Shown here piece after piece: positions 1,309 to 40,058 of a stretch of 64,000 nt of DNA (position 1 is its first letter; the number at the start of each line of letters is the position of its first letter). The DNA comes from Cytophagaceae bacterium. Its GTDB lineage: Bacteria; Bacteroidota; Bacteroidia; Cytophagales; Spirosomataceae. The stretch covers positions 1-64,000 of the forward strand of contig JAIXOL010000008.1 in assembly GCA_027486845.1 (NCBI GenBank), in the 5' to 3' direction. The notes beneath the pieces are model-generated. The model worked only from the letters and a program-made list of their open reading frames with translations, did not search any database and was not told the origin of the DNA. Position numbers and translations under genes: made by a program.

Positions 1309-1830
1309 ATGCAAAGACGTTCGGCAATAAAAAATATTGCCCTAACGATTGGTGGTACAATAGTGCTACCTTCGTGGGCAAACGCATGGAACAAAGAAGC
1401 AATCGCAAATACTTCTTTAAAGATTTCAGCATCGCAAGAAAATCTACTGGCAGAAATCGTCGAAACGATTATTCCCAAAACAGATACTCTCGGAGCAAAA
1501 GACCTCAATGTGCATCAGTTCACAATTAAGATGGTAGCCGATTGCTACGATAAAAAATCGCAAGAAACTTTCTCTAAAGGTTTTGATTTAGTTGATGTTG
1601 CCGCAAAAAGAGATTTCTCAAAAACTTTCATTGAATGTGATGGCAAACAAAAATTAGATGTTTTAAATAAAATGTCTAATTCGGAAAATAGCGATGAAAA
1701 AGGTTTCTTACGTTTAGTAAAGAACCTCACGATTCAAGGCTACCTCAACTCAGAATACGTAATGACTAAGCTACGAATTTTTGAATTTGCCCCAGCTCGC
1801 TATCACGGCTGTGTACCTGTCAAAAAGTAG
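1309..1830 (+). CDS. Gluconate 2-dehydrogenase subunit 3-like protein, Tat-exported (copy 1)
   Basis: This is a small 173-residue subunit of a periplasmic FAD dehydrogenase. The N-terminus has a twin-arginine signal (MQRRSAIKN, then a hydrophobic run ending near WANAW). The rest matches the gluconate 2-dehydrogenase subunit 3 family, with the hallmark EIVETIIPKTDTLGAKDLNVHQF at about residues 47-69. In this family the small subunit carries the Tat signal and takes the signal-less GMC catalytic subunit across the membrane. The next gene, 107 bp downstream, is that partner. A possible -7 box (TTTATTTG, one mismatch) is at 1272-1279, between the insertion sequence and the gene. A paralogous pair lies at 28077-30425. 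Confidence 0.85.
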   Translation: MQRRSAIKNIALTIGGTIVLPSWANAWNKEAIANTSLKISASQENLLAEIVETIIPKTDTLGAKDLNVHQFTIKMVADCYDKKSQETFSKGFDLVDVAAKRDFSKTFIECDGKQKLDVLNKMSNSENSDEKGFLRLVKNLTIQGYLNSEYVMTKLRIFEFAPARYHGCVPVKK

Positions 1831-1915
1831 ACAGTTTATAGTCGTCAGTTGGCAGAATAAATGCAATTTTCCCTAAATCACCAACTTGAAACTGTGAACT
1901 TTATAAGTATTCACT
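1831..1915. repeat. Imperfect palindrome between small subunit and GMC gene
   Basis: The spacer holds an imperfect inverted repeat (left arm from ACAGTTTATAGTC, right arm CCAACTTGAAACTGT) followed by the CACTCATTCA-like motif seen before other starts in this window. It looks like the palindromic spacer at 25038-25120. It may act as an mRNA hairpin between the two cistrons or be a dispersed repeat. Confidence 0.35.
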
Positions 1916-1937
1916 CATTCAAAATTAGATTCTAAAA

Positions 1938-3653
1938 ATGTCAAACATAAATATAGATTCAGTAAAAGCACAAACCTTCGATGCCATCGTTATTGGCTCG
2001 GGAATCAGTGGCGGCTGGGCAGCAAAAGAGCTAACTGGCAAAGGATTACGCACACTCGTATTGGAACGTGGACGTGAAGTAAAACACGTAACCGATTATC
2101 CGACTACCATGAAACAACCTTGGGAATTTGAACATCGTGGGCAAATCACCAAAGAAATACGTGATGCTAATCCAATTATCAGCAAATGTTATGCTTTTTA
2201 TGAAGGAACAGAGCAGTTTTTTGTGAAAGATGCCGAACATCCTTACGTACAAGAAAAACCTTTCGACTGGATTCGTGGTTACCAAACTGGCGGTAAATCA
2301 TTGATGTGGGCTAGACAAACCCAACGTTGGTCAGAATTTGATTTTGATGGCCCAGCCCGTGATGGTTTTGCCGTTGATTGGCCGATTCGCTACGCCGACC
2401 TTGCTCCTTGGTATAGTTATGTAGAAAAATTTGCGGGTATTTCTGGCAATAAAGACGGTTTAGCAAGTTTGCCCGACGGTGAATTTTTGCCACCTCACGA
2501 AATGAATTGTGTTGAAAAGCATTTCAGTCAAGAAGTAGCCAAAAACTATAAGGATCGTCACATCATTATGGGGAGAGCGGCTCATCTGACTCAACCTAAG
2601 CAAATCCACTTCGACCAAGGGCGTGGCACTTGTCAACACCGTACTATTTGCGAGCGTGGCTGTCCGTATGGTGGATATTTCAGTAGTAACTCCTCTACTT
2701 TACCATGGGCAGCTCGTACCGGAAAAATGACACTTCGCCCACATTCGGTTGTTCATTCTATCATTTATGATGAAAAGAAAGGAAAAGCTTCGGGCGTTAG
2801 AGTAATTGATGCAAACACCAAAGAAATGATTGAATATTATGCAAAAATCATTTTTGTAAATGCCGCAGCTCTAAATTCAAATCTTATTTTACTGAATTCT
2901 ACTTCGAGTCGTTTTCCGAACGGACTTGGTAATGATAGCGGAGTATTGGGCAAATACGTAGCATTCCATAATTATCGTGCAACAATCAATGCAGAATACG
3001 AAGGTTATTTAGATAATATGACCGACGGTCGTCGCCCAAATTCGCCTTATATTCCACGTTTCCGCAATGTATTTAAGCAAGAAACCGACTTTTTGCGTGG
3101 TTACGCCGCAGGCTTTTCGGCTGGTCGCTATCAACGTGACGACAGAAGTGCTTTGGGCGAAGACTTGAAAAAAGGTATTTTAAACCCATACCTAAATAAT
3201 GTTTGGAGTGTTGGTTCACACATGATGGGCGAAACGATTCCTAAAGAAAGCAATTTTGTAGCTTTAGATAAAACTTTGCTTGACCCTTGGGGAATTCCAC
3301 AATTAAAAATCTCGGTCGATTATGACAACAACGATGTAAAAATGACCAAAGATTATTTCGAACAAATGAGCGAAATGTTTACGAAAGCTGGTTTTAAAAA
3401 TATAAAAACCAACGATTCGAACCGTACTCCAGGTCTCGATATTCATGAAATGGGTGGCGTAAGAATGGGTAAGGATCCTAAAACTTCAATATTGAATAAG
3501 TGGAATGCTTTACACAATTGTAAAAACGTTTTCGTAACTGATGGAGCTTCAATGACATCAACTTCAACTCAAAATCCATCATTGACTTACATGGCAATGA
3601 CTGCTCGTGCGGCAGATTATGCAGTGAAAGAAATGAAAAAAGGAAATTTGTAG
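1938..3653 (+). CDS. GMC-family FAD-dependent sugar dehydrogenase, catalytic subunit (copy 1)
   Basis: This 571-residue GMC oxidoreductase should oxidise a sugar, sugar acid or glycoside in the periplasm. The FAD-binding Rossmann motif is at about 15-45 (AIVIGSGISGGWAAKEL). The C-terminal GMC_oxred_C region has the conserved IHEMGGVRMG and NPSLTYMAMTARAA stretches holding the catalytic His and Asn. C232, C238 and C242 form a C-x5-C-x3-C cluster like the Fe-S-binding cysteines of Burkholderia FAD-glucose dehydrogenase. It has no signal peptide, so it probably leaves with the Tat small subunit encoded upstream. The usual cytochrome c third subunit is not adjacent. The exact substrate cannot be read from sequence. 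Confidence 0.88.
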   Translation: MSNINIDSVKAQTFDAIVIGSGISGGWAAKELTGKGLRTLVLERGREVKHVTDYPTTMKQPWEFEHRGQITKEIRDANPIISKCYAFYEGTEQFFVKDAEHPYVQEKPFDWIRGYQTGGKSLMWARQTQRWSEFDFDGPARDGFAVDWPIRYADLAPWYSYVEKFAGISGNKDGLASLPDGEFLPPHEMNCVEKHFSQEVAKNYKDRHIIMGRAAHLTQPKQIHFDQGRGTCQHRTICERGCPYGGYFSSNSSTLPWAARTGKMTLRPHSVVHSIIYDEKKGKASGVRVIDANTKEMIEYYAKIIFVNAAALNSNLILLNSTSSRFPNGLGNDSGVLGKYVAFHNYRATINAEYEGYLDNMTDGRRPNSPYIPRFRNVFKQETDFLRGYAAGFSAGRYQRDDRSALGEDLKKGILNPYLNNVWSVGSHMMGETIPKESNFVALDKTLLDPWGIPQLKISVDYDNNDVKMTKDYFEQMSEMFTKAGFKNIKTNDSNRTPGLDIHEMGGVRMGKDPKTSILNKWNALHNCKNVFVTDGASMTSTSTQNPSLTYMAMTARAADYAVKEMKKGNL

Positions 3654-9159: not shown

Positions 9160-9673
9160 TTCTATAACTTCTCAAAATCACCTCATTTCCATACAACTTT
9201 TCTTACAATGCTTTTATTGCACTATTTCTACAAAATATAACATTGATTTTATCTTTATTAACAAAAACGTATCTATATTATCAATAGAATCTTAAAATAT
9301 TGTATATTTGCACCTATATAAATATTTGTATATTTTATGTAATGAATTCTTTTTTTAAAGAAACATAAAATTACAAATAGAAATATTTTGTAGTTTTCTA
9401 TAAAATATTTAATATTGCATCACATTGATACAATACATAAAGATGATTATTTTGATGATACCTATTAAATCGAAAAATCAACAATACCTTCAATTGGAAA
9501 AACATTAAAATATTAAGAAACATTTGGAACAATACAAGACACTTGTTTTATTTGCACAAAATACACTTAATTAGGCATCAATAAGATAATAAACCTTACT
9601 TTAACAAGTAATTATTATATATAAGGAAAATCTTAATCAATTTTTTTTCTAATTTTTTAACTTAATCAAAACT
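9160..9673. other. 514-bp non-coding region upstream of susC
   Basis: It is strongly AT-rich with no credible reading frame. It holds two promoter-like sites on the plus strand: TATATTTG at 9303-9310, an exact -7 match without a -33 partner, and the better-spaced site at 9523-9554. No tRNA or riboswitch-like fold was recognised. Confidence 0.6.
9523..9554 (+). promoter_or_regulatory. Probable susCD promoter
   Basis: TTTG at 9523-9526, a 20-bp spacer and TTTATTTG at 9547-9554 fit the Bacteroidota -33/-7 pattern with one mismatch in the -7 box. Transcription would start near 9561, leaving a leader of about 110 nt before susC. Confidence 0.5.
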
Positions 9674-12600
9674 ATGAAACAAAACTACTTTGTTCCCATC
9701 AAGGGGGCTCTGTTTTGCGGGTTGTTATGGCTCATGTCCATAACTGCTTTTGCACAAAAATCCGTAAGTGGTAAAGTAAGTGACGCAAAAGGAGATGGCG
9801 TTCCAGGTGCAAGTATCACAGTAAAAGGTACTACAACTGGTACAATCAGTGATGCAAATGGTGGCTTCAAAATTAATGTTCCAAATGCAGGTGGCTCTTT
9901 AGTATTTAGCTCTATTGGCTACAAAACTCAAGAAGTGAAATTAGCGGGACAAAGCACAATCAACGTATCAATGGAAGATGATGCTGCAAGTCTTGACGAG
10001 GTTGTTGTAACGGGTTACTCAATTGACAAAAGACGTGAGTCAACTGGTGCGATTTCAACTGTAAAATCAAAAGATTTAACAGCTGTTCCATCGGGTAACG
10101 TTGAGCAACAATTACAAGGTAGAGTTGCAGGTTTGACAGTTGTAACTAATGGTCAGCCAGGTACTGCCAGCCAAATCCGTGTACGTGGATTCGGTGCATT
10201 TGGTGGTAACGAGCCTCTTTACGTTGTAGATGGAATGCCCGTAGGTTCTACTAACTTCCTAAGCCCTGACGACATCGAGTCAACAACTGTATTGAAAGAT
10301 GCTTCTGCGGCTTCTATCTATGGTGCTCGTGCTGCCAATGGTGTAATCGTTTATACTACTAAAAAAGGAACAAAAGGTGCTAAAAAACTTAATGTTACTT
10401 ATGATGGCATGTACGGTGTTACTGACCCAGGTAACGGCCAAGCAATGATGAACCCAACTGATTTTGCTACTTGGACTTGGAATGCTAAAAGAAACTCAGG
10501 TGAGGCTTTTGGACACCCACAATTTGGTTCAGGTTCAACTCCAGTTATTCCTGACTATTTGAGTGTTGGTGGCAATCCAGGTGTTGTCGGAACTGTTGAT
10601 TTAGCTGCACAAAAGTTGAAATATAACGTTGACCCAGCAGCTGGTGCTATTTACCAAGTTATAAAAGCTAACAAAGCTGGTACTGACTGGTACGGTGCAA
10701 TCACTCGTCAAGCCCCAATCCAAAGACACTCTCTTGGATTTAGTGGTGGTGGTGAAAACAGCCGTTTCTATGTTGGATTCTCTGCTCAAGACCAAAAAGG
10801 TATCTTGATTAGCAACCAATTAAAGCGTTATGCCTTCCGTATCAATTCAGAATTCAATGTTTTGAAAAACTTACGTATCGGTGAAAACATCCAATTAACT
10901 TATATACAAGTATTAGGACAAACTGGGGGTGCTGGCGGTAATGGTATTGCGGCTGACGAAAACGACATCTTGCAAGCATTCCGTATGCCATCAATCATTC
11001 CTGTCTATGATGAGTTTGGTGGATATGCTGGTACAGCTGCAAAAGGATTTAACAACCCACGTAGCCCAGTAGCTAACCAACAAGGTTTATTAAATAACCG
11101 TAACTTTAATGCTTTAGCAAATGGTAACGTTTACGCAGAATTAGATGTAATCCCAGGATTAACGTTACGTACTTCGGTTGCTGGTAACTATGGCAACTCA
11201 TATTTCTGGAACTACGGCCGTTGGCAGTATGAAAACTCTGAAAATAACTCTGCATTCTCTTACGGAGAAGGTGGTGGTTATTCATTCGGATGGACTTTCA
11301 CAAATACCGCAAGCTACAAAAAAGCATTTGGTAAGCACAATATCGAAGTGTTAGCAGGTCAAGAAGCTTTGAATACTGGTGCTGGACGTAACTTAAATGC
11401 AAATGGTTTAAATCCATTTTCACAAGATATTAACTATGTAACAATTACTACTTTGGGAAATAGAAACCCACCTTCAAGTAACTTGTTTAAAGGTGTAAAC
11501 TTTAACTCATATTTCGGTAGAGCAATTTATACATTAAACGATAAATATATCTTAACTGGTGTTATTCGTCGTGACGGTTCTTCAAGATTTGGTGAAAATT
11601 CTCGCTATGGTGTATTCCCTGCGGTATCGGCTGCATGGCGTGTATCTTCAGAATCTTTCATGAAAAACCTTCCTTGGGTTCAAGACTTGAAAGTTCGTGG
11701 TGGTTATGGTACAATGGGTAACTCAAACAACGTTGACCCTAACAATCAATACAGTTTATATGCTGCTAGAGTTGATAATTCAGGCTATGACATCAATGGT
11801 TCTAATTCAAGCATCGTTGATGGATACTACCGTACTCGTATTGGTAACCCAAATGCTAAGTGGGAAACATCAGTTACTAAAAACATCGGTATTGATGGTT
11901 CATTCTTGAAAGGTAAATTAGACGTTATCGTTGACTTCTGGCAAAAAGATACTAAAGACTTATTGTATCAATTACCAATTACGGCAACAGCTGGTTTTGG
12001 TGCTGCTGCTCCTTCGGTAAACATTGGTAAAATGGTAAATAAAGGTATTGACATCCAAGTTATCAATCGTGGCAAAATCACTACTGATTTAGGATACGAA
12101 GTAAACGTAACGGGTAGTTTCTTGAAAAACGAAATTACTTCAATTGCTGAAGGTCAAACATACTTAACTAACGTTAATCCTGGTTTCCGTGGTATCAACC
12201 CTATTCGTAACCAATTGGGTTATGGCTTGTCATCATTCTATGGCTTCAAAGTATTAGGTTTGTTCCAATCTAAAGCTGAAGTTGATGCAGCTCCTGCTCA
12301 AGATGGTAAAGGTGTTGGCCGTTTCCGTTATGCTGACCTTAACAGCGATGGTAAAATTGATGCAAATGACCGTACTTATTTAGGAAGTCCAATCCCTAAA
12401 TTTACAGGTGGTGTAAACTTTACATTGACTTACAAAGGATTTGACTTATCAGCTTATGTTTATACTTCAATTGGTAACAAAATCTTTAACGTATCGAAAT
12501 GGTTCACAGATTTCTATCCTTCATTCTCAGGTGCAGCTATCTCTGAGCGTGTGAAAGAATCTTGGACTCCACAAAATACAGGTGCAACTATTCCAATTTT

Positions 12601-26952: not shown

Positions 26953-27070
26953 TAAACTATTTTATTGAGTCGTTAAAACCAACGGCAATAAGTTTTGAAA
27001 ATGAATTAAAAAAGTTGAATTTGGCTATTAAAAAATCTGTACTTAGCATAATACCTGTCAATAAATCTAC

Positions 27071-27078
27071 TATATTTG
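27071..27078 (+). promoter_or_regulatory. -7 box of the second esterase gene
   Basis: TATATTTG exactly matches TAnnTTTG, 29 bp before the chosen start at 27108. It lies inside the longer open frame, which supports the later start. Confidence 0.45.
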
Positions 27079-27107
27079 ATTTTTATTCAACCTTATACTA
27101 TTACATA

Positions 27108-28076: not shown

Positions 28077-28607
28077 ATGAATCGTAGAGAAGCCATACAA
28101 AGAGCCACTCTCCTTCTAGGAGGTGTACTTTCTGCACCATTAATGGCAGGTGCGATGGGGCAAATTCTCAACACCGGAGAAAGTGTTGCAGTAACAGCCG
28201 ACCAAGTAGCTTTATTAGCCGAAGTGGCCGATATTATTATTCCAACAACTGGCACGCCAGGAGCAAAAGCAGCGGGTGTCGAGAAGTTTATTGTGCGTGT
28301 CATGCGTGATTGCTATGAAAAAACTGATCAAGAGAAATTTTACGCAGGATTAGCAAAACTCGACGCAGATAGCCAAACAAAATTCGGCAAAGGCTTTACG
28401 GCACTCGATGGTGCTCAGAAAAATGAAATGGTAAAACAAAGTACGGTTGATAATAAAGCTTTCTTCTTAACGATGAAAGGCTTAACTGTAACGGGCTATT
28501 TCACATCAGAAATAGGAGCAACACAGGCTTTAGAATATTTACCAATCCCAGGTAAGTTCGAAGCTTGTATTCCACTCAAACCAGGCCAGAAAGCTTGGGC
28601 ATTATAA
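28077..28607 (+). CDS. Gluconate 2-dehydrogenase subunit 3-like protein, Tat-exported (copy 2)
   Basis: This 176-residue paralogue of the protein at 1309 begins with a Tat signal (NRREAIQRATLLLGG, ending near AGAMGQ). The family motif VADIIIPTTGTPGAKAAGVEKF is at about 56-77, and RDCYEKTDQEKFY and MKGLTVTGYFTSEIG match the first copy closely. It should escort the GMC subunit encoded 102 bp downstream through the Tat system. Confidence 0.86.
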   Translation: MNRREAIQRATLLLGGVLSAPLMAGAMGQILNTGESVAVTADQVALLAEVADIIIPTTGTPGAKAAGVEKFIVRVMRDCYEKTDQEKFYAGLAKLDADSQTKFGKGFTALDGAQKNEMVKQSTVDNKAFFLTMKGLTVTGYFTSEIGATQALEYLPIPGKFEACIPLKPGQKAWAL

Positions 28608-28690: not shown

Positions 28691-28709
28691 CATATTGCAA
28701 ATTAAAATA

Positions 28710-30425
28710 ATGGCAAACTTAAATATAGATTTAATCAAAGACCAAACTTACGATGCCATCGTAATCGGCTCGGGTATTTCGGGCGGTTGGGCAGCTAAAG
28801 AATTGACCGAAAAAGGAATGCGAGTTTTGATGCTCGAAAAAGGTCGCCAACTCGAACACGTAACAGGCTACGAAAACGCGATGAAAGCTCCGTGGGAGTC
28901 GCAATACAATGGACGTCTAACAGTAGCTCAAAAAGAAAGTCACCCGAAATTAGCTCGTGATTATCCGTACAACGAAATGAGCGAAAAATACTGGATGAAC
29001 GATTCAGATGCTTTGTACAAAGAAGAAAAACGTTTCGACTGGTACAGACCAAATATCGTTGGTGGAAAATCAATCATGTGGGGTCGTCAATCCTATCGTT
29101 TGAGCGATATTGACTTTGAAGCAAACCTAAAAGATGGTATCGCAGTTGACTGGCCGATTCGATACAAGGATATTGCTCCGTGGTATTCTTATGTTGAAAA
29201 AATTGCGGGTATTTCTGGCGAAAAACTTGGCTTACCTCAATTGCCCGATAGCGATTTTCTACCTCCAATGGAAATGTATTGCGTAGAAAAAGAAGTGCGT
29301 AAACGTCTTGAAAAAACATTCCCAGGTCGTACGATGACCATTGGTCGTGTAGCCAACCTTTCAGAAGCACGCAAAGAGCAACTTGGTGTTGGTCGTGCAG
29401 CCTGTCAATATCGCAATAAATGTGCATTAGGCTGTCCATTTGGTGCATATTTCAGTACACAATCTTGTACATTGCCTCCTGCTGCCAAAACTGGCCGCTT
29501 AACGCTTCGTCCAGATTCGGTTGCTAAAGAAATTTTATTCGATGCGAAAACTCAAAAAGCTACGGGCGTTCGCATAGTTGATACTCAAACACTCGATGTG
29601 CGTGAGTTTTATGCAAAAATCATCTTCGTTTGTGGAAGTACATTGGGTTCTACAACCTTGATGCTCAACTCGAAATCTGAGCGTTTCCCGAATGGATTTG
29701 GCAATGATTCTGGTCAACTTGGACATAATTTAATGGACCACCATTTCCGCACGGGTGCTGCCGGCGAGTGGGAGGGCGACTTGGATAAATATTATTCTGG
29801 CCGCCGTGCCAATGGTATTTACGTACCACGTTACCGCAATATTGGCTCCGACAAACGTGATTATATCCGTGGTTTTGGCTATCAAGGTGGCGGAAGCCGA
29901 CAAGGATGGCAACGAAATGTAGCCGAATTGAATTTCGGTGCAGAATTCAAAGAAGAATTAACAAAACCTGGCAACTGGACTATGGGCTTCGGTGGCTTTG
30001 GTGAAACGCTTCCCTACTTTGAAAACCGAGTATATTTACACCCAACCGAAAAAGATAAGTGGGGACTTCCGCTACCAGTTTTTGATGCAGAATTGAAAGA
30101 AAACGAGAAAAAAATGCGTATCGATATGCAAAATGATGCCATCGAAATGCTTGAAAAATCAGGAGTGAAAAACGTAAAAGGCTACGACCGTGGCTCATAT
30201 TTGGGTATGGCTATTCACGAAATGGGAACTGCCCGCATGGGTCGTGATCCAAAAACTTCTGTTTTGAATGGTAATAACCAAGTTTGGGGAGCGAAAAACG
30301 TTTTTGTTACTGATGGCTCAGCGATGGTTTCGGCATCTTGCGTAAACCCTTCGCTAACATACATGGCTCTTACAGCTCGTGCGGCTGACTTTGCCGTAAA
30401 TGAATTGAAGAAAAAGAATTTGTAA
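28710..30425 (+). CDS. GMC-family FAD-dependent sugar dehydrogenase, catalytic subunit (copy 2)
   Basis: This is a paralogue of the GMC protein at 1938. Starting at the ATG at 28710 gives 571 residues and aligns the N-termini (MANLNIDLIKDQ against MSNINIDSVKAQ); the ATG at 28695 adds five residues. The FAD motif AIVIGSGISGGWAAKEL is at 15-31. C232, C238 and C242 repeat the C-x5-C-x3-C cluster at identical positions. The C-terminus has IHEMGTARMG and NPSLTYMALTARAA. It has no signal peptide, consistent with Tat piggyback export. The two copies differ most in the middle, so they may have different substrates. Confidence 0.88.
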   Translation: MANLNIDLIKDQTYDAIVIGSGISGGWAAKELTEKGMRVLMLEKGRQLEHVTGYENAMKAPWESQYNGRLTVAQKESHPKLARDYPYNEMSEKYWMNDSDALYKEEKRFDWYRPNIVGGKSIMWGRQSYRLSDIDFEANLKDGIAVDWPIRYKDIAPWYSYVEKIAGISGEKLGLPQLPDSDFLPPMEMYCVEKEVRKRLEKTFPGRTMTIGRVANLSEARKEQLGVGRAACQYRNKCALGCPFGAYFSTQSCTLPPAAKTGRLTLRPDSVAKEILFDAKTQKATGVRIVDTQTLDVREFYAKIIFVCGSTLGSTTLMLNSKSERFPNGFGNDSGQLGHNLMDHHFRTGAAGEWEGDLDKYYSGRRANGIYVPRYRNIGSDKRDYIRGFGYQGGGSRQGWQRNVAELNFGAEFKEELTKPGNWTMGFGGFGETLPYFENRVYLHPTEKDKWGLPLPVFDAELKENEKKMRIDMQNDAIEMLEKSGVKNVKGYDRGSYLGMAIHEMGTARMGRDPKTSVLNGNNQVWGAKNVFVTDGSAMVSASCVNPSLTYMALTARAADFAVNELKKKNL

Positions 30426-30555: not shown

Positions 30556-32286
30556 ATGAATTTCAACAATTTCCTTATCACCATTATTTTCCTAAGCCTC
30601 TCACAACCCCTTCATGCTCAAAACCTTTCGATTCAAGACCTAAATAAAAAATTAGGTCGAGGGATAAACATGGGCAATATGTTTGAAGCCCCTACCGAAA
30701 CCGAATGGGGAAATCCTTTCAAAGATGATTATTTTGAGCGAATCTCCCAATTGGGTTTTACTCACGTCAGGATTCCGATTCGCTGGGACGTAGCTGCACG
30801 AACTACTCAAACTGAGCCTTATACGATAAACCCCGCTTTTCTAGCAAGAATAAAATATGTTATTGACAAGGCTTATGCAAGTAAATTATATGTGATCATA
30901 AATATGCATCACCACGAAGAGGTATTTGCAAATCCCGAAAAAATAAAGCCTAGATTTATTAGCCAATGGGAGCAAATTGCTACTTTTTTTAAGGATTATG
31001 ACCAAAAATTGCTGTTTGAGGTCATGAACGAACCTAACACAAATCTAACGCCTGACCTTTGGAATACCTTTTTTTCTGATGCTTTAAAAAGTATTCGCAA
31101 GACAAATCAAACAAGGGCAGTATTGATGGGAACAGCTAATTATGGTGGACTTAGCGGAGTTCCAAGTCTGAAAATTCCTGACGATAAAAATATTATTTTG
31201 ACCGTTCATTATTATAATCCTTTCAATTTTACACATCAAGGAGCAGAATGGGTAGGTAGCGAGGCTCAAAATTGGCTTGGCACGGTTTGGGAAGATTTGG
31301 CTCTCGAAAGGAATCAAGTAATTTCAGAATTTGACTATTTGAACACCCTCGCCAAACAAAAAAACATTCCAGTTCATGTTGGAGAATTTGGAGCTTACAG
31401 CAAAGCCGACATCGAAAGTAGGGTAAAATGGACTACTTTTTTGGCTCGTTGGTTTGAAGAACAAGGTTTCAGTTGGGCATATTGGGAGTTTAGTGCTGGT
31501 TTTGGCATCTATGCCCCAGCAACGCAACAATACAACACAAAATTGGTAGATGCTTTGATAAAAAATACCATGTCAAGTGCCAAGGTTTTACCATCAAAAA
31601 TACTTTATCAAAGTGATTTTAGTACCAACGATGGTTGGAATTTGGGTGTACAAACTAATTCATCGGCTACACTTTCAAGAAATAATAGTTTGAATATTGA
31701 TGTAAAAACTAGTTCAAAGGACGGTTGGCATGTTCAATTGACTAAAGCCAATATTCCGATTTTAAGCAAAAAAAGATATTTAGTAAGCATAAAAGCAAAA
31801 GCCGACAAAGATGTTTCGGTGACAAACTATATTGGCAAAAATGCTTCGCCTTACAATAGCTATTCTGGATACAGCAACTTAACTTTCAGCACAAAAGAAA
31901 AGGAGTTTGCTTATACTTTCGTAATGAATGACCCAAGCGATTTAGCCGCCCGAATGAGCTTTGATATGGGAACAACGGTTGCAAATATCAGTATTTCTTC
32001 GATAAAAATTGAAGAAATAATCGACAACTTTATCCCTCTTGCCACTGAAAAAGAATCAAATATTCATATTTACCCTAATCCAATCGAGGATATTCTCACG
32101 ATTTCGGCTTTAAAGACTATCCAACGTTTAGAATTAATTGACCAAAAAGGTAACATAATTTTAAGAAAAAACATCGTTAACGAAAGTTCACTAAACGTAT
32201 CTTTGCAGACAATTCCATCAGGCAGCTATATTTTGGTTTTGTACGAAAAAAATGGTATCACGACAAAAAAAGTAGTTAAGAATTGA
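30556..32286 (+). CDS. T9SS-secreted family 5 glycoside hydrolase (cellulase-like)
   Basis: This 576-residue secreted endo-glycanase has a signal peptide at about 1-22 (ending LHAQ). The GH5 TIM barrel (about 30-335) shows RIPIRW, NMHHHEE, acid/base E159 in VMNEPN, HYYNPF and nucleophile E277 in VHVGEFGAYS. A carbohydrate-binding-module-like beta-sandwich (about 345-495) follows. The C-terminal 75 residues are a type A T9SS sorting domain (IYPNPIEDILTIS ... GSYILVLYEKNGITTKKVVKN). It probably cuts beta-glucan or mannan at the cell surface. The next gene overlaps its stop codon, so the two are translationally coupled. Confidence 0.92.
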   Translation: MNFNNFLITIIFLSLSQPLHAQNLSIQDLNKKLGRGINMGNMFEAPTETEWGNPFKDDYFERISQLGFTHVRIPIRWDVAARTTQTEPYTINPAFLARIKYVIDKAYASKLYVIINMHHHEEVFANPEKIKPRFISQWEQIATFFKDYDQKLLFEVMNEPNTNLTPDLWNTFFSDALKSIRKTNQTRAVLMGTANYGGLSGVPSLKIPDDKNIILTVHYYNPFNFTHQGAEWVGSEAQNWLGTVWEDLALERNQVISEFDYLNTLAKQKNIPVHVGEFGAYSKADIESRVKWTTFLARWFEEQGFSWAYWEFSAGFGIYAPATQQYNTKLVDALIKNTMSSAKVLPSKILYQSDFSTNDGWNLGVQTNSSATLSRNNSLNIDVKTSSKDGWHVQLTKANIPILSKKRYLVSIKAKADKDVSVTNYIGKNASPYNSYSGYSNLTFSTKEKEFAYTFVMNDPSDLAARMSFDMGTTVANISISSIKIEEIIDNFIPLATEKESNIHIYPNPIEDILTISALKTIQRLELIDQKGNIILRKNIVNESSLNVSLQTIPSGSYILVLYEKNGITTKKVVKN

Positions 32287-33824
32287 GAACTCCAAATATA
32301 AATATTTTTCGGTTAATCACTTGTTTCCCATTCATAGGTTTATTACTCACACTAAGTTGCAATAAACAATCGGAAGGTGAAAAACTAGCTCAAACTTATT
32401 GTGCTTCGTGCCACCTTTTCCCCGAACCAAGTTTACTTGATAAAACAACTTGGAAAAATAATATTATGCCCATAATGGCTCAACAAATGGGTTTACAAAT
32501 TGTCAATGGCGAAGTATATCCCGATATTCAAAAAGGTGCTGATGGAAAATTTGAGAGCGTTGCGAGCGTCACTCCAGAAGATTGGGCTAAAATTACAGCT
32601 TTTTATGAAGAAAATGCTCCCGAAAAATTACCAAGTCAAGGTCGTGGGCAAATTTCGGTAATTACTGATTTGTTTTCGGTAAAACCAATTTCGATTCCAC
32701 AAAGTAGTTTTCCATCGCTTACTTACATCAAAATTGATAGTGCTAACCAGCAAATATATACCTCAAGTGATTCTATGTTGAGTGTTTTTGATAAAAAAAC
32801 AGCACCTATTTTGGCTCAAAAGGTAAAAGAAACAATAGTTGATATTGATTTCGGAAATACACTTCAAAAAGCAGGAAATCGAGTTGGATACTTTACAAAT
32901 ATCGGCATCTTAAACCCCAACGATTTAGCCAAAGGCTCACTTCATAGTTTCAACTTTGATGGAAAGACCAATTTTAAAAACACAGGAAGAATTCTCGAAA
33001 ATCTTACTCGCCCTGTACAAAGCATTGCCGTTGATTTGGATAAAGATGGACTCATCGACCAGCTTGTTTGTGGATATGGCAATAAAAATGGCTCTTTAAT
33101 TTGGAATAAAAACTTGGGTAGTAACAAATTTCAAGAGCAAATAATCAAGCCATTTCCTGGGGCAATAAAGGCATATATTGAGGATGTAAATAAAGATGGC
33201 TTACCTGATATTTGGGTACTTTTTGCCCAAGCACAAGAAGGTATTTTTCTGTTTACGAATAAAGGAAATGGTACGGGAGGCGTTCCTCAATTTGACTCAA
33301 AAGAAATACTTAGATTTTCGCCAATTTATGGCTCTTCTTTTTTTGAATTAGTTGATTTGAATAAAGATGGTCACAAAGACATTCTCTATACCAGTGGTGA
33401 TAATGCCGATTATACTACTCATGTACTCAAACCTTATCACGGAGTTTATGGCTATTTGAATGATGGCAAAAATAACTATAAACAAGCATTTTTCTATCCA
33501 ATCAATGGCTGTTTCAAGGCATTAGCTCGTGATTTTGATAAAGATGGAGATATAGATATTGCTACGATTGCCTATTTTCCTGACTTCAAAAATCAACCAA
33601 AAGAAGGCTTTGTTTACCTCGAAAATAAAGGAAAATTTACTTTTTCAGCCGCGTCAATAAAAGAAGTAAACGCAGGAAATTGGCTCGTAATGGATGCCGC
33701 CGACCTCGATGCCGATGGCGATGAAGATATTGTACTGGGCAATTTCGACCGAAAAAAACGTGGAAGAATCAATGAATCTAAAAAAGATACTGCAATATTG
33801 GTTTTGTCGAATAATTTAAGGTGA
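32283..33824 (+). CDS. Lipoprotein with N-terminal c-type haem motif and VCBS repeats
   Basis: This 513-residue protein starts at a TTG that overlaps the GH5 stop codon (TTGA). No ATG comes before the lipobox cysteine C26 (TLSC), so the TTG start is well supported. A haem c site follows at once (C40-x-x-C43-H44). The remainder is a beta-propeller of VCBS/FG-GAP repeats (DLDKDGLIDQ, DVNKDGLPD, DFDKDGDIDI, DLDADGDEDI). Coupling to a secreted glycosidase suggests a role in the same glycan pathway, perhaps passing electrons, but the function is not known. Confidence 0.82.
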   Translation: MRTPNINIFRLITCFPFIGLLLTLSCNKQSEGEKLAQTYCASCHLFPEPSLLDKTTWKNNIMPIMAQQMGLQIVNGEVYPDIQKGADGKFESVASVTPEDWAKITAFYEENAPEKLPSQGRGQISVITDLFSVKPISIPQSSFPSLTYIKIDSANQQIYTSSDSMLSVFDKKTAPILAQKVKETIVDIDFGNTLQKAGNRVGYFTNIGILNPNDLAKGSLHSFNFDGKTNFKNTGRILENLTRPVQSIAVDLDKDGLIDQLVCGYGNKNGSLIWNKNLGSNKFQEQIIKPFPGAIKAYIEDVNKDGLPDIWVLFAQAQEGIFLFTNKGNGTGGVPQFDSKEILRFSPIYGSSFFELVDLNKDGHKDILYTSGDNADYTTHVLKPYHGVYGYLNDGKNNYKQAFFYPINGCFKALARDFDKDGDIDIATIAYFPDFKNQPKEGFVYLENKGKFTFSAASIKEVNAGNWLVMDAADLDADGDEDIVLGNFDRKKRGRINESKKDTAILVLSNNLR

Positions 33825-33887: not shown

Positions 33888-34895
33888 TCAAGATAACAAC
33901 CCCTTTGCATAGGCTACACATTTGGCGACCTCTTTCACAGCATTTGAGCCTTCTGGAATGTCATATTCTAATTCAACTGTTGCAGGAAACTTGTATTTCT
34001 TAGTTTTCATTAAAGTCAAAATTTCTTTGAGTGGCGTGTCACCATTGCCCCATGCTAAATTTCCTTTTCCATCAGCTGTGCGGTCTTTGATGTGCATACT
34101 CGTAATACGGTCATGTTTTGCTTCGATTAGTGCTAATAATGACTCTTTTGTATTCTTTCCACCTACCGCAATGTAGTGTCCACAATCAAGATTAAGCGAG
34201 TTATAGGGCGATTGACTCAAGGCTTCATCCCAAAGGCTATCTGTTGCCTGTAAATGAGCATGATATCCAACATAAACCTTGTTTTTTGCTCCCAAATCAC
34301 CCAAACGCTTAGTTTGAGCTGAATTAGTCGGAAGCTCAACCGTGACCGAATTTGCACCGAGAGCTTTGGCGGCCTTCATTCCATATTCAATTTCAGCATC
34401 TGAGTTATTTGCCCCAAAAGCATTTGGCTTAAACGCATAAATTGTTACGCCAGCATCATTAAATTTCTTACGAATTTCCTTGAATTTATCCATTGAGGTA
34501 GTTTCACGCCATGCTGCAACACTTTTGTTATATTCGGCCATCTGAGTTTTTTGTTCTTCAGTCATTTGCGGGCGTTGTGATGGCTGACCAGCAGTTTGAC
34601 GCGGCGGAGGCCCCATTCTGTAGGGATTAGGGTTTTTAGGTTTTCCAGCAAAATCTTCGGCGGGGTCACCCATCATTTCGATGGCACTTACATTACAATC
34701 AATGCAAAACTGCAACAATTGGTCAATATCATGGGGCATACTTCTGAATGAGTACGTGATTGCCCCAATCTGCACACCATTAAATTTTGAATTAGGTTTA
34801 TCGAACCAATTAGTAGAGCGTTTGCTCAACACCAAGCCAAGGGTAGCCATTGGTGCAATTGTCATAAAACCACGACGAGAAAGTTGATTTTTCAT
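33888..34895 (-). CDS. Tat-exported sugar isomerase/epimerase-like TIM barrel (copy 2)
   Basis: This 335-residue xylose isomerase-like TIM-barrel protein has a Tat signal (QLSRRGFMTIAP). Barrel features include QIGAITYSFRSMP, CNVSAIEMMGDPAEDF, VYVGYHAHLQ, NLDCGHYIAVGG, MHIKDRT and TVELEYDIPEG, the last carrying likely metal ligands. A proline/arginine/glutamine-rich insertion (about 91-112) lies after the second strand, in a similar place to that in the copy at 24110. It is the last gene of a minus-strand operon with the sulfatase and the propeller-HEAT-haem protein. Keto-sugar epimerase or lyase activity is inferred from this context. Confidence 0.82.
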   Translation of the reverse strand: MKNQLSRRGFMTIAPMATLGLVLSKRSTNWFDKPNSKFNGVQIGAITYSFRSMPHDIDQLLQFCIDCNVSAIEMMGDPAEDFAGKPKNPNPYRMGPPPRQTAGQPSQRPQMTEEQKTQMAEYNKSVAAWRETTSMDKFKEIRKKFNDAGVTIYAFKPNAFGANNSDAEIEYGMKAAKALGANSVTVELPTNSAQTKRLGDLGAKNKVYVGYHAHLQATDSLWDEALSQSPYNSLNLDCGHYIAVGGKNTKESLLALIEAKHDRITSMHIKDRTADGKGNLAWGNGDTPLKEILTLMKTKKYKFPATVELEYDIPEGSNAVKEVAKCVAYAKGLLS

Positions 34896-34925: not shown

Positions 34926-36584
34926 TTAATAACTTACTTTCATTCTAAGAATCTGACTTGGCAAATAGCCAATTCGATGAGCCAAAACATACAAAGAATC
35001 GTCATTTGAAACATTGAATGGCTTTGAGTAAACCTCCCACGACTTGTCATTCCAATGCTTTTTATAACCAATTGACGCTCCTTTATTTGTACAATTGATT
35101 GAAACTTTACTGCCTACCTTACTAATTAAAGGAGGACTTGTTTGTGGAGCTTGGTTTTTTCCATTCCACCATTTAGCTAATAATTCTTTTTCAGAAAGTG
35201 CACCCAAATCACCGTATTTATTTAGCCATTCTTGGTGTTTTGCTCGCAATTCAACCAATTTTTCTTGGTATTTGGGATTATTCACTAAGTTTAAGTATTC
35301 ATTTGGGTCAGTTTTTGTATCGAAAAGCTCTTCGTTAGGTTTACTCTTTCTGAACCAATACATTTGTTGTTCATTCAATTTTCCTTCATCACGAAGTCGC
35401 AAAATCTCTTTCATACTTTTTTGGCCTAAGCGATATTCAATCTCTTGATAGTAAGGTTTTTCGGGCATATAATTTTTAAGGTATTTATATCGTCCATCGC
35501 TTACTGCTCTCACTCTATCATATTCCGTATCCATTCTATCTCTTGCGGCATAAATATATTTTCTTGGCATTTTGGCCTTCTGATTTCCCAAAAATGCTTG
35601 CCCTTGTATATATTTTGGAACAGGAATATTTGCTAAAGAAAGGATTGTGGGGGCTAAATCAACAAAACTAATCAGTTGATTATCAACAGTCCCAGCATTT
35701 TCAGCATTAGGAAAACGAATAATCATTGGCACTTTTAAACCTCTATCATATAGTTCTCGTTTTACAAAAGGGAGACCATCGCCGTGGTCGCTATAAAAGA
35801 AAATAATTGTGTTATCGTAAAGTCCATCATCTTTTAGTTTTTGAATAATTTCGCCAACTTGTTTGTCCATGAGTTGCACATTTGTCAGAAAACGAGCAAT
35901 ATCAGTTCTAATTATCTCATTATCAGGATAATACGAAGGCACTTCTACATCCTCAGGTCTAACCAATAAAGGCTCTTTTCCTTTAGAAAAAACCTGAGAT
36001 TCATGTGTAATCGTCAAATTTATAACCGAAAAAAATGGCTGATTTTTATCTTTTCTACCTCGCCAATCGCCTTTTTTGGGGTCGGGTGGCGTTCCACTTT
36101 CATCCCAAACAGTTTGAGGTGGCGAAAACTGATAATCTTGTTTATTATTATTAGAACAATAATATCCTTGTTTTCTTAAAAACTCTGGAAAACAGCGAAC
36201 ACTTTCAGGAACCAAAGCAGAATAGGCAGGAATAGAAGTAAATGTAGCAACCAAAGGTGATGTTCGCATGTGCATGCCGCCAATTGAGGTTTGGTACATA
36301 CCTGTAATAATAGCATTTCGGCTTGGAGCACAAACACCCGCCGTCGAAAAAACATTGGTATAACGCACACCTTCTTTTGCCAATTGATCAAGATTTGGCG
36401 TTTTAGCAACTTTTTCACCAAAACTCCCTAAATGAGGCGACATATCTTCACACGTTATCCAAAGAATATTTGGCTGAGACTTTATTTCTGTTCTCTTGAA
36501 ATTGAAAGCAGTTGAAACAGAGATAGTTAATACAAAAAATAGGATATTTTTAAGTAAAACCTTGGCTTTTATTGCGTGCTTCAT
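34926..36584 (-). CDS. Secreted sulfatase (family S1; N-sulfoglucosamine sulfohydrolase-like)
   Basis: This exported sulfatase of about 552 residues removes sulfate from glycans. The modification motif is visible as CAPSR (GVCAPSRNAIITG, Cys at about 85), in which the Cys is converted to formylglycine by a maturase encoded elsewhere. Metal-binding CEDMSPHLG is near residue 45 and FFYSDHGDGLPF near 260. The ATG at 36584 is preferred because it precedes a signal peptide; the frame is open to 36623 (565 residues). The WITCEDMSPHLGSFG opening resembles heparan N-sulfatases. It is the middle gene of a three-gene operon (gaps about 70 and 30 bp). Confidence 0.87.
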   Translation of the reverse strand: MKHAIKAKVLLKNILFFVLTISVSTAFNFKRTEIKSQPNILWITCEDMSPHLGSFGEKVAKTPNLDQLAKEGVRYTNVFSTAGVCAPSRNAIITGMYQTSIGGMHMRTSPLVATFTSIPAYSALVPESVRCFPEFLRKQGYYCSNNNKQDYQFSPPQTVWDESGTPPDPKKGDWRGRKDKNQPFFSVINLTITHESQVFSKGKEPLLVRPEDVEVPSYYPDNEIIRTDIARFLTNVQLMDKQVGEIIQKLKDDGLYDNTIIFFYSDHGDGLPFVKRELYDRGLKVPMIIRFPNAENAGTVDNQLISFVDLAPTILSLANIPVPKYIQGQAFLGNQKAKMPRKYIYAARDRMDTEYDRVRAVSDGRYKYLKNYMPEKPYYQEIEYRLGQKSMKEILRLRDEGKLNEQQMYWFRKSKPNEELFDTKTDPNEYLNLVNNPKYQEKLVELRAKHQEWLNKYGDLGALSEKELLAKWWNGKNQAPQTSPPLISKVGSKVSINCTNKGASIGYKKHWNDKSWEVYSKPFNVSNDDSLYVLAHRIGYLPSQILRMKVSY

Positions 36585-36656
36585 GGGAACTCTATTAAAA
36601 TAGATAGATTTGACAACTTTCAAAAAGTTGTCAAATCTAAGTTTTCGATAACTGCT

Positions 36657-39600
36657 TTATTTCAAACCCGATAAAAATTCTACTACATCACGAATTTCTC
36701 GTTTTGTTAGTAAAGTGCCCATTGGCGGCATACTCGATGGCATATTTTCACGTTTGGCAATGCGTGAAACTGGAATCACCAAAGGCTCTGCATCGGAAGT
36801 TGTAATCACCAATTCTTCAGCATTTTCTTTGGCCAATGTTCCTGTCACTTCCTGTCCATCTTTTAGTTTCAAAGAAACCGTTCCGTAACCCGGCGAAAGT
36901 CTTGCACTAGGCTCAATGAGTGCTTGAAGGATTTGCTCACGGCTTAATATACCACCAATTTTGGCAAGATTTGGTCCAACCGAACCACCTTCACTCCCCA
37001 TATTGTGGCAACGTACACACTGAACAGTTGAGTTATAATTGAAAACATTTCGTCCATTGTTTCGATTTCCACCAAAAAGCGACTCCATATATTCATCCAT
37101 TGGTGAAGCACCTGGTTTGATAGCCGCAATTTTGGTTTTTAGAGCCTCCGAACCCGAAGCTTCAACTGCCTCTTTTAATTCTAACGAAACATTGGGAGAT
37201 AATTGTTTTTCTTTCAATTGATCAATCAAACCAGCCAAAATTGTTTGGGTTTTTTCAATTGTCAATTTACCCAAAACAACCAATATTTGTTGCTGTTCTC
37301 TAACGCCGCCCTTTGTAAAAATTGTCTGTACGAGGGTCGGCAAACTTTCTTTCGATACATTATCATTATTCAATAAACTTAAAGCTACAGTTCGCACACT
37401 TTCATCCTTATCGTCAATTCCTTTCTTGATTACTGCCTCTAATTCTGTATATTTTAGTTTATTCAAAGCAGGCAAAACAGCAGCTCTAACTTTAGCATTA
37501 TCAGAATTATTATAAATATTCGCCAGTTCGTTATTGTATTCGGCGATATTCAATTCCGACAATAAACTTGCCATCGTTACGAGTGTTTCAGCATTGGTTT
37601 CTTTCAAGAAATTGCTAATAAATGGTTTAATTTTAGTTTTCACTAAAGCTCCATCACGCACCAAAACTCCACGATAACGACCATCAACTCTATCCAAAAC
37701 CGATGGATTTCCCCACGTTCCCAAGGTAGCCAAAGCCTCAGCTTTGATGTTGTCCTTTATGTCGGTGCGAGTCGAGAAAGCAATCAATAAATCAAGTTCT
37801 TTTGTTGAACCAACACGCAAAGCAGCATTGATAGCACGGCGAAGCAATGGTTCAGAAGTAAAACGAGTTTCGGCTAAAGTAGCCGCCAAAGCAGGTAATG
37901 CCGCAGGAATTGATAAGTCATCGTTAATGCCACGAGCGGCTTCAGTTACGATATATTCATCTTTATCATTCAAGAAAAGAGCGATGTTATCATTCTTCAT
38001 TCTGCGTAAAACCAAAACAGCCGCCGTGCGAAGTGCTTTGCTTGGGTTATTTGCCAAAGCCACGATTGGCTCAACTTTTCCAATGCGAGAAAGTGCTAAA
38101 ACTGCCGCATGACGTAAATAAACGTCTTCATCGTTATTAGTGTCGAGCATCTGAATCAATGGAGCAACCGCATCTTGGTACGCAATTCTGCCCAATGCCT
38201 CAGCTGCATAAAATTGAATTCTTGGATTTTTGCTTTTCAATAAAGGTATAAATTCGCTACCCGCAGTTTCAAGTTTAATATCACCAATTATTTTTGCTGC
38301 TTGAGCGATGATTTCTTCATCTTTATCTTTTAGTAAAGGCAAAAGTGGTGAATCAAAAGTTTTGTTCTGACGAGTCAATTGTCCAACTCCCCAAATGCCA
38401 TGAATACGGGCAAGCTGATTGCTTGTTTGAGCAATTGCCTTAGTAAATTGAGCGAAACCTTTTTGTCCACGGCTTGCTAATTCAAATTGTGCTTTTTGAC
38501 GGACACGCATATCTACATTTGAAAGTAACTCATAAAGTCCGGCATCGGTTTGAGCCGGATAATCAAGCTGGATAAGACGTTTTGTTTCTTTTCGGAGTGC
38601 TTCGAGGTCGTTTTTCTCTTTCGTTACATCCAACTTCCAAACCCTACCGTAGTTTTTAGTGTCCCAACCATTAATCCAGTCGGCAGCGTATAATGCACCA
38701 TCTGGACCAAATTTGATACCCGTTGGCAAGATTCCGCTTACTACGTCTTTTTCGCCATCAAGCACAAACGATGCCCCTTTTTGCTTCAAGCCAAACGACC
38801 AAATGTGCGAGCGAGTTGGTGTACCCACAAACTCAACCAAGAAATATTTGTTTTTCCAATCCGAACCCAAAGCCGTTCCTGGGTTGTAAACCATTCCAGT
38901 TGGGCCATTGTGAAAATTCATGATTGGCGGAATAATATACGCCGCTTGACCGTCCCAGCGTGGTTTAGAAAGTTTTTCGTCCATCCAAACATTAAATTTG
39001 TTGTTTTTCGGGTCTGTGTATTTTCCATACTGCCAGTTTGAACGCCAACCTGCATCTGAGCCTTCAACTACATGAACTAAACGCTCGCTTTCGCCAGGGT
39101 GATCACCATCGTTATCAGACGAAATCAAGTTTCCGTATTCATCAAAAACAAACTCGTGCGTATTGCGTAAACCAGCTGCAAAAATCTCAAAATCACTACC
39201 ATCAGGGTTTGAACGAGCAATAATTCCTGAGTTTGGATGCTCAAACTTTTTGCCGTCGGCAGTTGTAATATTTGCACCAATATCACCAATATTCCAGTAA
39301 ATACGACCATCTGGGCCTTCGGTTACGCCCGACATTCCGTGTCCACCGAAACCAATATGCACACCATAACCATGACTTATAGAAGTTTTCTTATCAAAAA
39401 TACCATCGCCATCGGTATCTTTAACTTGCCAAAGGTCTGGAGCAATTCCAATAAACATTTCTTTGCCACGCACCAAAAGTCCACCCGCAACATCAGTGAT
39501 TTCTTCAAAAAAATCATTCAAAACACGCATTGATTTATCAGCAATTCCATCACCGTTTGTATCTTCCAAACGCCAAACTTCGTCTTTTTCGATGGCTAAA

Positions 39601-40058
39601 TCGTGCCAATCGTGGCTACCATCTTCATTAAGGTCTTTTAGCCATTCGTTTTCTTTACTTTTCTCAGGGGCGAAAGTTTTACGCAAAAATGCACGACGAT
39701 CTTCAACGGTTTGAAGTCCAATAGATTCAGTCATCCAATCTCGGTGCCCACGAATATCAAATTCCGAGTTTTTTTGGCGATTTGTACGAATCAAATAAAC
39801 ACGTCCTTGGTCATCAATCGACATCGCAACAGGGTCAGGTGCGAGCGAGTCAGACGCCCAAAGCGTCATTTGTATACCATCAATTACTTTTGCTGATGTT
39901 TTCTCACGAATTTCTTTTGCTTTAGCAACTACCTTTGTAGGGTCCTCATTGATAACCAAAGGCTTTTCTTTTTTTCCAAATTTAACACAGGAAACAATTA
40001 AAATGGTCGATGCCGTGGCCAAAACGAGCTTGCTTTTTAGGAGTTTACTTAGAATCAT
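36657..40058 (-). CDS. Propeller-HEAT-haem c lipoprotein (PVC-type membrane-bound dehydrogenase family)
   Basis: This 1133-residue protein has a lipobox at C24 (LIVSC). The first half (about 50-480) is a sorbosone-dehydrogenase-like beta-propeller (GVHIGFGGHGMSGVTEGPDGRIYW, AGLRNTHEFVFDEYGN). Residues about 500-950 are HEAT repeats, and the C-terminal 140 residues are the PVC-type haem-binding domain with C1014-x-x-C1017-H1018. This design is abundant in Planctomycetes and Verrucomicrobia and also occurs in Cytophagales. It is thought to oxidise sugars or pass electrons, but its substrate is not established. First gene of the operon with the sulfatase and epimerase; divergent from a ROK regulator. 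Confidence 0.85.
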   Translation of the reverse strand: MILSKLLKSKLVLATASTILIVSCVKFGKKEKPLVINEDPTKVVAKAKEIREKTSAKVIDGIQMTLWASDSLAPDPVAMSIDDQGRVYLIRTNRQKNSEFDIRGHRDWMTESIGLQTVEDRRAFLRKTFAPEKSKENEWLKDLNEDGSHDWHDLAIEKDEVWRLEDTNGDGIADKSMRVLNDFFEEITDVAGGLLVRGKEMFIGIAPDLWQVKDTDGDGIFDKKTSISHGYGVHIGFGGHGMSGVTEGPDGRIYWNIGDIGANITTADGKKFEHPNSGIIARSNPDGSDFEIFAAGLRNTHEFVFDEYGNLISSDNDGDHPGESERLVHVVEGSDAGWRSNWQYGKYTDPKNNKFNVWMDEKLSKPRWDGQAAYIIPPIMNFHNGPTGMVYNPGTALGSDWKNKYFLVEFVGTPTRSHIWSFGLKQKGASFVLDGEKDVVSGILPTGIKFGPDGALYAADWINGWDTKNYGRVWKLDVTKEKNDLEALRKETKRLIQLDYPAQTDAGLYELLSNVDMRVRQKAQFELASRGQKGFAQFTKAIAQTSNQLARIHGIWGVGQLTRQNKTFDSPLLPLLKDKDEEIIAQAAKIIGDIKLETAGSEFIPLLKSKNPRIQFYAAEALGRIAYQDAVAPLIQMLDTNNDEDVYLRHAAVLALSRIGKVEPIVALANNPSKALRTAAVLVLRRMKNDNIALFLNDKDEYIVTEAARGINDDLSIPAALPALAATLAETRFTSEPLLRRAINAALRVGSTKELDLLIAFSTRTDIKDNIKAEALATLGTWGNPSVLDRVDGRYRGVLVRDGALVKTKIKPFISNFLKETNAETLVTMASLLSELNIAEYNNELANIYNNSDNAKVRAAVLPALNKLKYTELEAVIKKGIDDKDESVRTVALSLLNNDNVSKESLPTLVQTIFTKGGVREQQQILVVLGKLTIEKTQTILAGLIDQLKEKQLSPNVSLELKEAVEASGSEALKTKIAAIKPGASPMDEYMESLFGGNRNNGRNVFNYNSTVQCVRCHNMGSEGGSVGPNLAKIGGILSREQILQALIEPSARLSPGYGTVSLKLKDGQEVTGTLAKENAEELVITTSDAEPLVIPVSRIAKRENMPSSMPPMGTLLTKREIRDVVEFLSGLK

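Follow-up and report, generated by a model that had tools for sequence, protein, structure and literature searches.

The genus Emticicia carries a conserved locus in which genes for SusC/SusD-type uptake are combined with genes for exported esterases, a flavin-dependent dehydrogenase of the GMC family (GMC2) and a haem lipoprotein. We analysed a 64,000-nt stretch (the window) of a 5.36 Mb Emticicia genome and followed up the block 1309-40058, which a preliminary description had read as one pathway for the oxidation of glycans outside the cytoplasm. The domains listed in that description were all found in place by Pfam scans, which we used for domain assignment in the window proteins, but only a SusCD locus at about 9.4-33.8 kb, and not the whole 39 kb, forms a coherent unit. 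Sequence analysis establishes the gene set of this locus, its conservation, a palindrome shared by two promoters, the active-site residues and the family placement of its enzymes. On balance we favour reading it as a locus for glycan use of the SusCD type into which a periplasmic sugar dehydrogenase, acting most likely at C3, is integrated, with optional β-elimination. We advance more tentatively, and with less than even confidence, the fuller proposal of a genus-fixed locus whose invariant core comprises de-esterification and a respiratory dehydrogenase with an FG-GAP β-propeller haem subunit, without a glycoside hydrolase, and in which one operator would couple SusCD uptake to periplasmic oxidation and eliminative cleavage.

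Conservation was scored in the window genome (G000) and ten further Emticicia genomes (n = 11). Genes encoding an UnbV protein, a carboxylesterase, a second esterase, small subunit 2, GMC2 and an FG-GAP haem lipoprotein occur in the same order in all eleven, the UnbV gene of G002 being truncated by the end of the retrieved stretch and the haem lipoprotein gene of G009 by a contig end; in some genomes other genes interrupt the esterase-esterase-small subunit-GMC2-haem order. The lipoprotein gene lies directly 3' of GMC2 in eight genomes, and a GH5 gene intervenes in G000, G002 and G010. A local regulator is encoded at the locus in nine genomes (not in G002 or G005), and a SusC-like protein lacking the barrel is kept over its full length in six, and is therefore not a simple remnant. 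Pair 1 (small subunit 1 and GMC1), the sulfatase, the second TIM barrel (TIM2), the DUF7133 protein and GH5 lie outside the conserved, palindrome-linked core. It is very improbable that the listed genes form no pathway and only happen to be neighbours in a carbohydrate region dense in genes: the stretch is indeed interrupted by hisB, ruvC, a GT2 gene and an M19 dipeptidase gene, which separate pair 1 from the SusCD locus, and GH5, the sulfatase, TIM2/DUF7133 and pair 1 vary independently, but the core is fixed in 11/11 genomes and a palindrome is common to both promoters. The locus thus delimited has a SusC/SusD pair with linked enzymes, and the palindrome is the one feature that points to their shared control.

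This palindrome, absent from the preliminary description, was found by aligning the region upstream of the regulator gene and has the consensus ATTGTATC-N5-GATACAAT. The window holds an exact copy at 20906-20926 and a one-mismatch copy at 9414-9434, about 240 bases upstream of SusC, and no third copy at up to three mismatches; at that loose threshold the window search is in itself unremarkable, two or more sites being found in 20 of 100 shuffles. No other site in the window genome matches with one mismatch or none. The eleven genomes together (62 Mb) contain 17 such sites, against about 3 expected from base composition: each genome has one between M19 and SusC (eleven in all), and of the rest five are at the regulator promoter and one is elsewhere in G003. 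A contig break falls between palindrome and SusC in G010, and the SusC at the palindrome in G002 is only 41% identical to that of the window. When two mismatches are allowed, a site is present at the regulator promoter in 9/9 genomes with the regulator at the locus. The regulator carries a Nudix domain and an NrtR/AraR winged helix (Pfam), and the two window palindromes are putative operators; we predict that it binds them from the conserved palindrome alone, and its effector may be a sugar.

GMC2 is the central enzyme of the core. A Gluconate_2-dh3 small subunit with a twin-arginine motif (identified by eye) precedes each of the two GMC genes of the window. Residues H508 and N551, which we take to be the GMC catalytic His/Asn pair, are conserved in 114/114 and 113/114 GMC sequences, respectively; the pair is presumably common to GMC2, fructose dehydrogenase (FDH) and glucose dehydrogenase dependent on flavin adenine dinucleotide (FAD). 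C237, C243 and C247, conserved in all 114 sequences, have the same spacing as Cys212, Cys218 and Cys222 reported for the Burkholderia glucose dehydrogenase BcGDH (PMC6719666). We surveyed the neighbourhoods of the best 80 of at least 594 GMC candidates from a genome scan. GMC2 shares 58-65% identity with enzymes from 3-keto-glycoside clusters of the LacABC/DUF1080 type, with 62% to the enzyme of Indibacter alkaliphilus LW1 (L056), a strain named for clustering of LacA with DUF1080 (Price 2022, PMC9007349), and 58.6% to that of Xanthomonas sacchari, whose cluster reads TIM-GMC-small-DUF1080 / cytochrome c-TIM-Gfo. The nearest named GMC2 relatives in the set of 80, which place the window genome in Emticicia, are from Emticicia sp. 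HJF.15 (97%) and Emticicia sp. 21SJ11W-3 (82%). AP_endonuc_2 (TIM-barrel) genes occur in 47/80 loci against 8.3 expected, DUF1080 genes in 32/80 against 4.7, and both in 27/80; domain labels came from profiles built from own-genome members and window proteins, and the expectations from own-genome density, and the surveyed loci are non-independent. In a midpoint-rooted FastTree phylogeny, GMC2 falls in a clade of 19 sequences including its own (support 0.974), nested in a group of 81 (0.998) with many cluster-type loci. By sequence, both GMC proteins of the window belong to the small-subunit/3Fe-4S group of LacABC-type clusters, and GMC2 probably oxidises glycosides at C3.

The first exported TIM barrel of the locus, TIM1, is related to a known enzyme of 3-keto-glycoside cleavage. 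A TIM1 profile of 35 aligned sequences matches the structures 8tcd, 8tct and 8tcs (E 4e-68 to 2.8e-67) and 8bvk (E 1.8e-37), the last being AtOGE, a Mn-dependent 3-keto-O-glycoside β-eliminase (PMC10628242). A phmmer alignment pairs H188, H190, D220, H246 and E285 of TIM1 with H132, H134, D163, H189 and E233 of AtOGE, of which H132, D163, H189 and E233 are described as metal ligands and H134 as the catalytic residue (PMC10628242); the five TIM1 residues are invariant in 35/35 aligned homologues. Among these homologues are many exported TIM barrels whose genes lie near those of small subunits in LacABC-type loci, and TIM1 belongs to this subfamily on the evidence of its sequence. We propose that it is eliminase-like, a candidate 3-keto-glycoside β-eliminase.

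Several observations weigh against oxidation at C3 followed by elimination as the function of this locus. Four genomes (G001, G007, G008, G009) have no TIM1 at the locus, and the open frame of TIM1 in G002 lacks the N-terminus. In the clade of GMC2 itself, AP_endonuc_2 genes are found in 1/18 loci (1.8 expected) and DUF1080 genes in 3/18 (1.0 expected), approximately background. None of the 17 DUF1080 genes of the window genome lies in the window, and none shares a contig with any of its seven small-subunit genes at a distance of 20 kb or less, two of the seven being less than 3 kb from a contig start; a TIM barrel is present within 10 kb of 2/7, by estimate not beyond chance. The solved structures closest to GMC2 are fructose dehydrogenase and a glucose dehydrogenase. 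The palindrome, in turn, may not be confined to this locus: six more sites in the window genome have exactly two mismatches, and two of them (C61:116024-116044, L186; C68:105014-105034, L187) precede other SusC-like genes by 87 and 34 bases, which would fit a wider regulon or a related motif; the other four lie close to or within genes that include typA, gldB, an amino-acid kinase gene and those of the EF-P region. The preliminary description had likened its enzymes to those of 3-keto pathways and had named a lack of co-occurrence of these families in related genomes as refuting the idea. The likeness is supported by the family of the GMC proteins and by the five AtOGE residues of TIM1, with TIM1 missing from the locus in four genomes; co-occurrence is seen in the 80 loci as a whole and is about background in the clade of GMC2.

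The closest solved structures and the background-level neighbours in the GMC2 clade favour an alternative in which GMC2 is a periplasmic sugar or sugar-acid dehydrogenase of the FDH, glucose dehydrogenase or gluconate type that oxidises released monosaccharides purely for energy, at a position other than C3, with no eliminative cleavage and with TIM1 incidental, as its optional presence at the Emticicia locus would allow. We consider this alternative unlikely, because GMC2 is far closer to the members of LacABC/DUF1080-type clusters than to FDH, which it matches with 111 bits over about 555 residues (phmmer), and because TIM1, where present, is of a subfamily found beside GMC and small-subunit genes in LacABC-type clusters.

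The haem lipoprotein is the remaining constant element of the dehydrogenase module. Its CxxCH motif is present in all eleven locus copies, and its gene adjoins or follows GMC2 in each, which makes the protein a candidate c-type cytochrome partner; from this adjacency we propose that it is the electron acceptor of GMC2. The earlier suggestion that a GMC enzyme sits beside a haem protein thus holds throughout Emticicia, with GH5 between the two in 3/11. A coupling of GH5 to the haem lipoprotein, also suggested, is rejected because the lipoprotein gene follows GMC2 in 11/11 genomes and GH5 is there in three. The assignment as acceptor has to be set against the wider distribution of the family, which is found in 124 of 197 genomes of relatives (E ≤1e-60, the genus included). 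Outside the genus, no GMC gene lies within 1.5 kb of the FG-GAP haem gene in 20 loci, one of them with a TIM1-like gene, taken from well over 100 matches listed. The haem gene occurs in 3/80 survey loci, two from Emticicia and one from Flavitalea (L097), the last non-adjacent. On these loci, a general partnership of FG-GAP haem proteins with GMC enzymes is rejected. Second Emticicia copies have an UnbV gene within 1.5 kb in 5/8 loci, one being that of the window genome (C22:114547-116001, 41% identical), and the family may therefore work with UnbV/SusCD systems.

From these features we infer the oxidised carbon, the substrate, the electron partner, the order of steps and the binding of the palindrome by the regulator, and the following scheme may be proposed. 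The Nudix/NrtR-AraR-type regulator would control two operators, one before SusC and one in its own divergent promoter. SusCD would import an acylated oligosaccharide or glycoside, from which the two exported esterases would strip the acyl groups. The complex of small subunit 2 and GMC2, exported by twin-arginine translocation (Tat) on the signal of the small subunit, would oxidise a sugar hydroxyl, most likely at C3, with electrons passing from FAD through the 3Fe-4S cluster to the haem of the FG-GAP lipoprotein and on to respiration; the lipoprotein would take the place of the small cytochrome c of other clusters. TIM1, where present, would cleave the 3-keto-glycoside by Mn-type β-elimination, and in genomes without it the product may be processed by DUF1080, AtHYD-size TIM-barrel and Gfo/Idh/MocA proteins encoded elsewhere; the window genome, with its 17 DUF1080 genes, also has a cluster that holds an AtHYD-size TIM barrel and a Gfo protein.

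The presence of both esterases in the invariant core also fits a locus that handles acylated aromatic or phenolic plant compounds, such as feruloyl or phenolic glycosides, in which the esterases would free the acid and GMC2 would oxidise an aryl glucoside or aryl alcohol. One esterase matches, with E 2.5e-27 and far below the cut-off, the feruloyl-esterase region of a model for xylanase/feruloyl esterases, Caulobacter LacABC is reported to matter for growth on salicin (PMC9007349), and AtOGE acts on 3-keto-phlorizin (PMC10628242). We regard this specialisation as improbable, since SusCD and the Nudix/AraR-type regulator suggest a sugar substrate, BtAraR being described as responding to L-arabinose (PMC4666351); it differs from the scheme above mostly in substrate.

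Periplasmic, oxidation-first breakdown of glycosides is already known. LacABC, a lactose 3-dehydrogenase, occurs with DUF1080 clusters in Caulobacter and Indibacter, with a putative LacABC also in Pedobacter (PMC9007349), earlier work on this route being that of Arellano (2010, as cited in PMC9007349), and the GlycDH/TAT pair is described as carrying out C3 oxidation in a Rhizobium/Agrobacterium system with AtOGE, AtHYD and Gfo (PMC10628242). The oxidation-first concept of the preliminary description is for this reason not new. The Emticicia locus resembles LacABC in its periplasmic small subunit and GMC protein, in the TIM-barrel sugar enzymes and the candidate c-type cytochrome nearby and in the oxidation proposed to precede cleavage, and differs in its setting among genes for SusCD, two esterases and a Nudix regulator, in the FG-GAP haem lipoprotein found in place of a small cytochrome c and in the lack of DUF1080 in the locus. 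Like the GlycDH/AtOGE system, in which a flavin C3 dehydrogenase is co-expressed with a Tat protein, it combines a flavin dehydrogenase with a Tat-type small subunit, and TIM1 has the five AtOGE active-site residues; in Emticicia the AtHYD-size and Gfo genes lie outside the locus, and TIM1 carries a twin-arginine signal. Like FDH and the FAD-glucose dehydrogenases of the direct electron transfer (DET) type, GMC2 has a hitch-hiker small subunit and a 3Fe-4S cysteine spacing of 6+4; unlike them, it has no equivalent of Cys213 (Gln in 107/114 GMCs), and the sequence match is weaker. An alternative pathway of glycan breakdown was reportedly described in a Nature paper of 2024. Finally, SusCD, esterases and a Nudix/NrtR-family regulator are shared with polysaccharide utilization loci of Bacteroidota and their regulation by BtAraR (PMC4666351), whereas the invariant core in Emticicia consists of dehydrogenase, esterases and haem lipoprotein rather than glycoside hydrolases.

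A literature search returned no paper on the Emticicia locus among the matches listed, and among these the association of the dehydrogenase with SusCD and esterases, its FG-GAP haem partner and the palindrome look new. If the proposed scheme is correct, aerobic Bacteroidota could couple SusCD uptake to a 3-keto route that runs in the periplasm, feeds respiration and replaces ordinary hydrolysis, and a β-propeller haem lipoprotein could substitute for the usual cytochrome subunit. The two palindromes and the single regulator offer a precise, testable regulon, and the core genes are a defined set for assays.

Table 1. Features of the Emticicia SusCD locus and of neighbouring modules in the window
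Feature	Coordinates	Strand	Evidence or occurrence
Putative operator, SusC side	9414..9434	.	ATTGCATC-ACATT-GATACAAT, 1 mismatch to palindrome
SusC-like TonB-dependent transporter	9674..12898	+	CarbopepD_reg_2, Plug
SusD-like protein	12988..14721	+	SusD_RagB 2e-50
UnbV/ASPIC FG-GAP protein	14881..18456	+	11/11 genomes
SusC-like N-terminal domains without barrel	18511..20106	+	6/11 genomes
NrtR/AraR-type regulator (Nudix + winged helix), presumed local regulator	20110..20844	-	NrtR_WHD 1e-22, AraR_C 2e-13
Putative operator, divergent regulator/GSDH promoter	20906..20926	.	ATTGTATC-AAAAA-GATACAAT, exact
GSDH-like propeller + PKD + cytochrome c (CKSCH) + CBM6, optional module	21071..23992	+	7/11 genomes
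TIM1, twin-arginine, 3-keto-glycoside eliminase-like TIM barrel (AP_endonuc_2)	24110..25036	+	7/11 genomes
Carboxylesterase (COesterase), twin-arginine motif	25154..26821	+	11/11 genomes
Esterase (PF00756)	26904..27986	+	start probably ~27108 per orthologues; 11/11 genomes
Small subunit 2 (Gluconate_2-dh3, PF13618), twin-arginine motif, presumed GMC2 carrier	28077..28607	+	11/11 genomes
GMC2, FAD dehydrogenase, 3Fe-4S-type C237/C243/C247, H508/N551	28695..30425	+	11/11 genomes
GH5 endoglucanase-like enzyme, type IX secretion system tail, variable insertion	30556..32286	+	3/11 genomes
FG-GAP mono-haem (CASCH) lipoprotein, proposed GMC2 electron acceptor	32283..33824	+	after GMC2 in 11/11
TIM2, second twin-arginine TIM barrel (AP_endonuc_2), HxH..D..H..E, neighbouring block	33888..34895	-	6/11 genomes here
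Sulfatase (CAPSR), accessory	34926..36623	-	2/11 genomes here
DUF7133/PVC-type HEAT + CVRCH haem protein, neighbouring block	36657..40058	-	6/11 genomes here
Small subunit 1 (PF13618), twin-arginine motif, separate module	1309..1830	+	Pfam
GMC1, separate module beside hisB	1938..3653	+	6/11 genomes

Two small subunit-GMC pairs and two TIM barrels with Tat signals had been described in this block, and both sets are present, with domains assigned by Pfam and twin-arginine motifs seen by eye in both small subunits, TIM1, TIM2 and the carboxylesterase; in a scan of small subunit 2, TIM1, TIM2 and the carboxylesterase, the TIGR01409 model matched the signal of TIM1 only. Pair 1 is rejected as a member of the locus: no palindrome is nearby, hisB, ruvC, GT2 and M19 intervene, and it is found beside hisB in G000, G002, G004, G006, G009 and G010 only. 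It was not seen beside hisB or ruvC in G001, G003, G005, G007 and G008, with 1-4 kb beyond the locus covered in G001, G007 and G008. A DDE transposase gene (25-1116) adjoins pair 1 at the contig edge.

The GSDH domain of the optional propeller protein is recognised by Pfam (1e-37), and the narrower TIGR03606 model scores 79.5 of 434.55 bits, far below the cut-off. Models for pqqB and pqqE gave no match over cut-off in the 11 Emticicia genomes, nor in 14 control genomes, so that this search is without a positive control. Because no genes for synthesis of pyrroloquinoline quinone (PQQ) exceed the cut-off, a role as PQQ dehydrogenase is doubtful, and the protein probably does not act as a PQQ enzyme on its own. 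All seven genomes with the GSDH gene at the locus, and one of the four without it (G008), encode a full-length PqqB-like protein that scores below the curated cut-off.

TIM2 is more distant, its best match being 4kw2 (E 4.6e-8); H212, H214, D237, H268 and E308 are kept across eight sequences, and one homologue adjoins a GMC gene (L073). It forms a block with the DUF7133 and ROK genes, and on L130 it adjoins the other end of the broken haem lipoprotein gene of G009.

Elsewhere in the window genome, L012:198-6309 (contig C49) encodes on one strand a GH9 enzyme, a cupin, a small subunit, a GMC protein and a TIM1-like barrel, and by its sequence is another hydrolase/dehydrogenase/eliminase-like module. 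L016:4195-14522 (contig C7) encodes SusC/SusD-like proteins (N-terminal sequence only), DUF1080, a 350-aa TIM barrel of AtHYD size, a Gfo/Idh/MocA protein and an MFS transporter, and is possibly a downstream 3-keto sugar cluster. At the far end of the window, 59482-64000 carries PSCyt/PSD1 planctomycete-type cytochrome genes, distant homologues of which (35-43%) lie inside the GMC2 locus of G002 (L138), between carboxylesterase and esterase.

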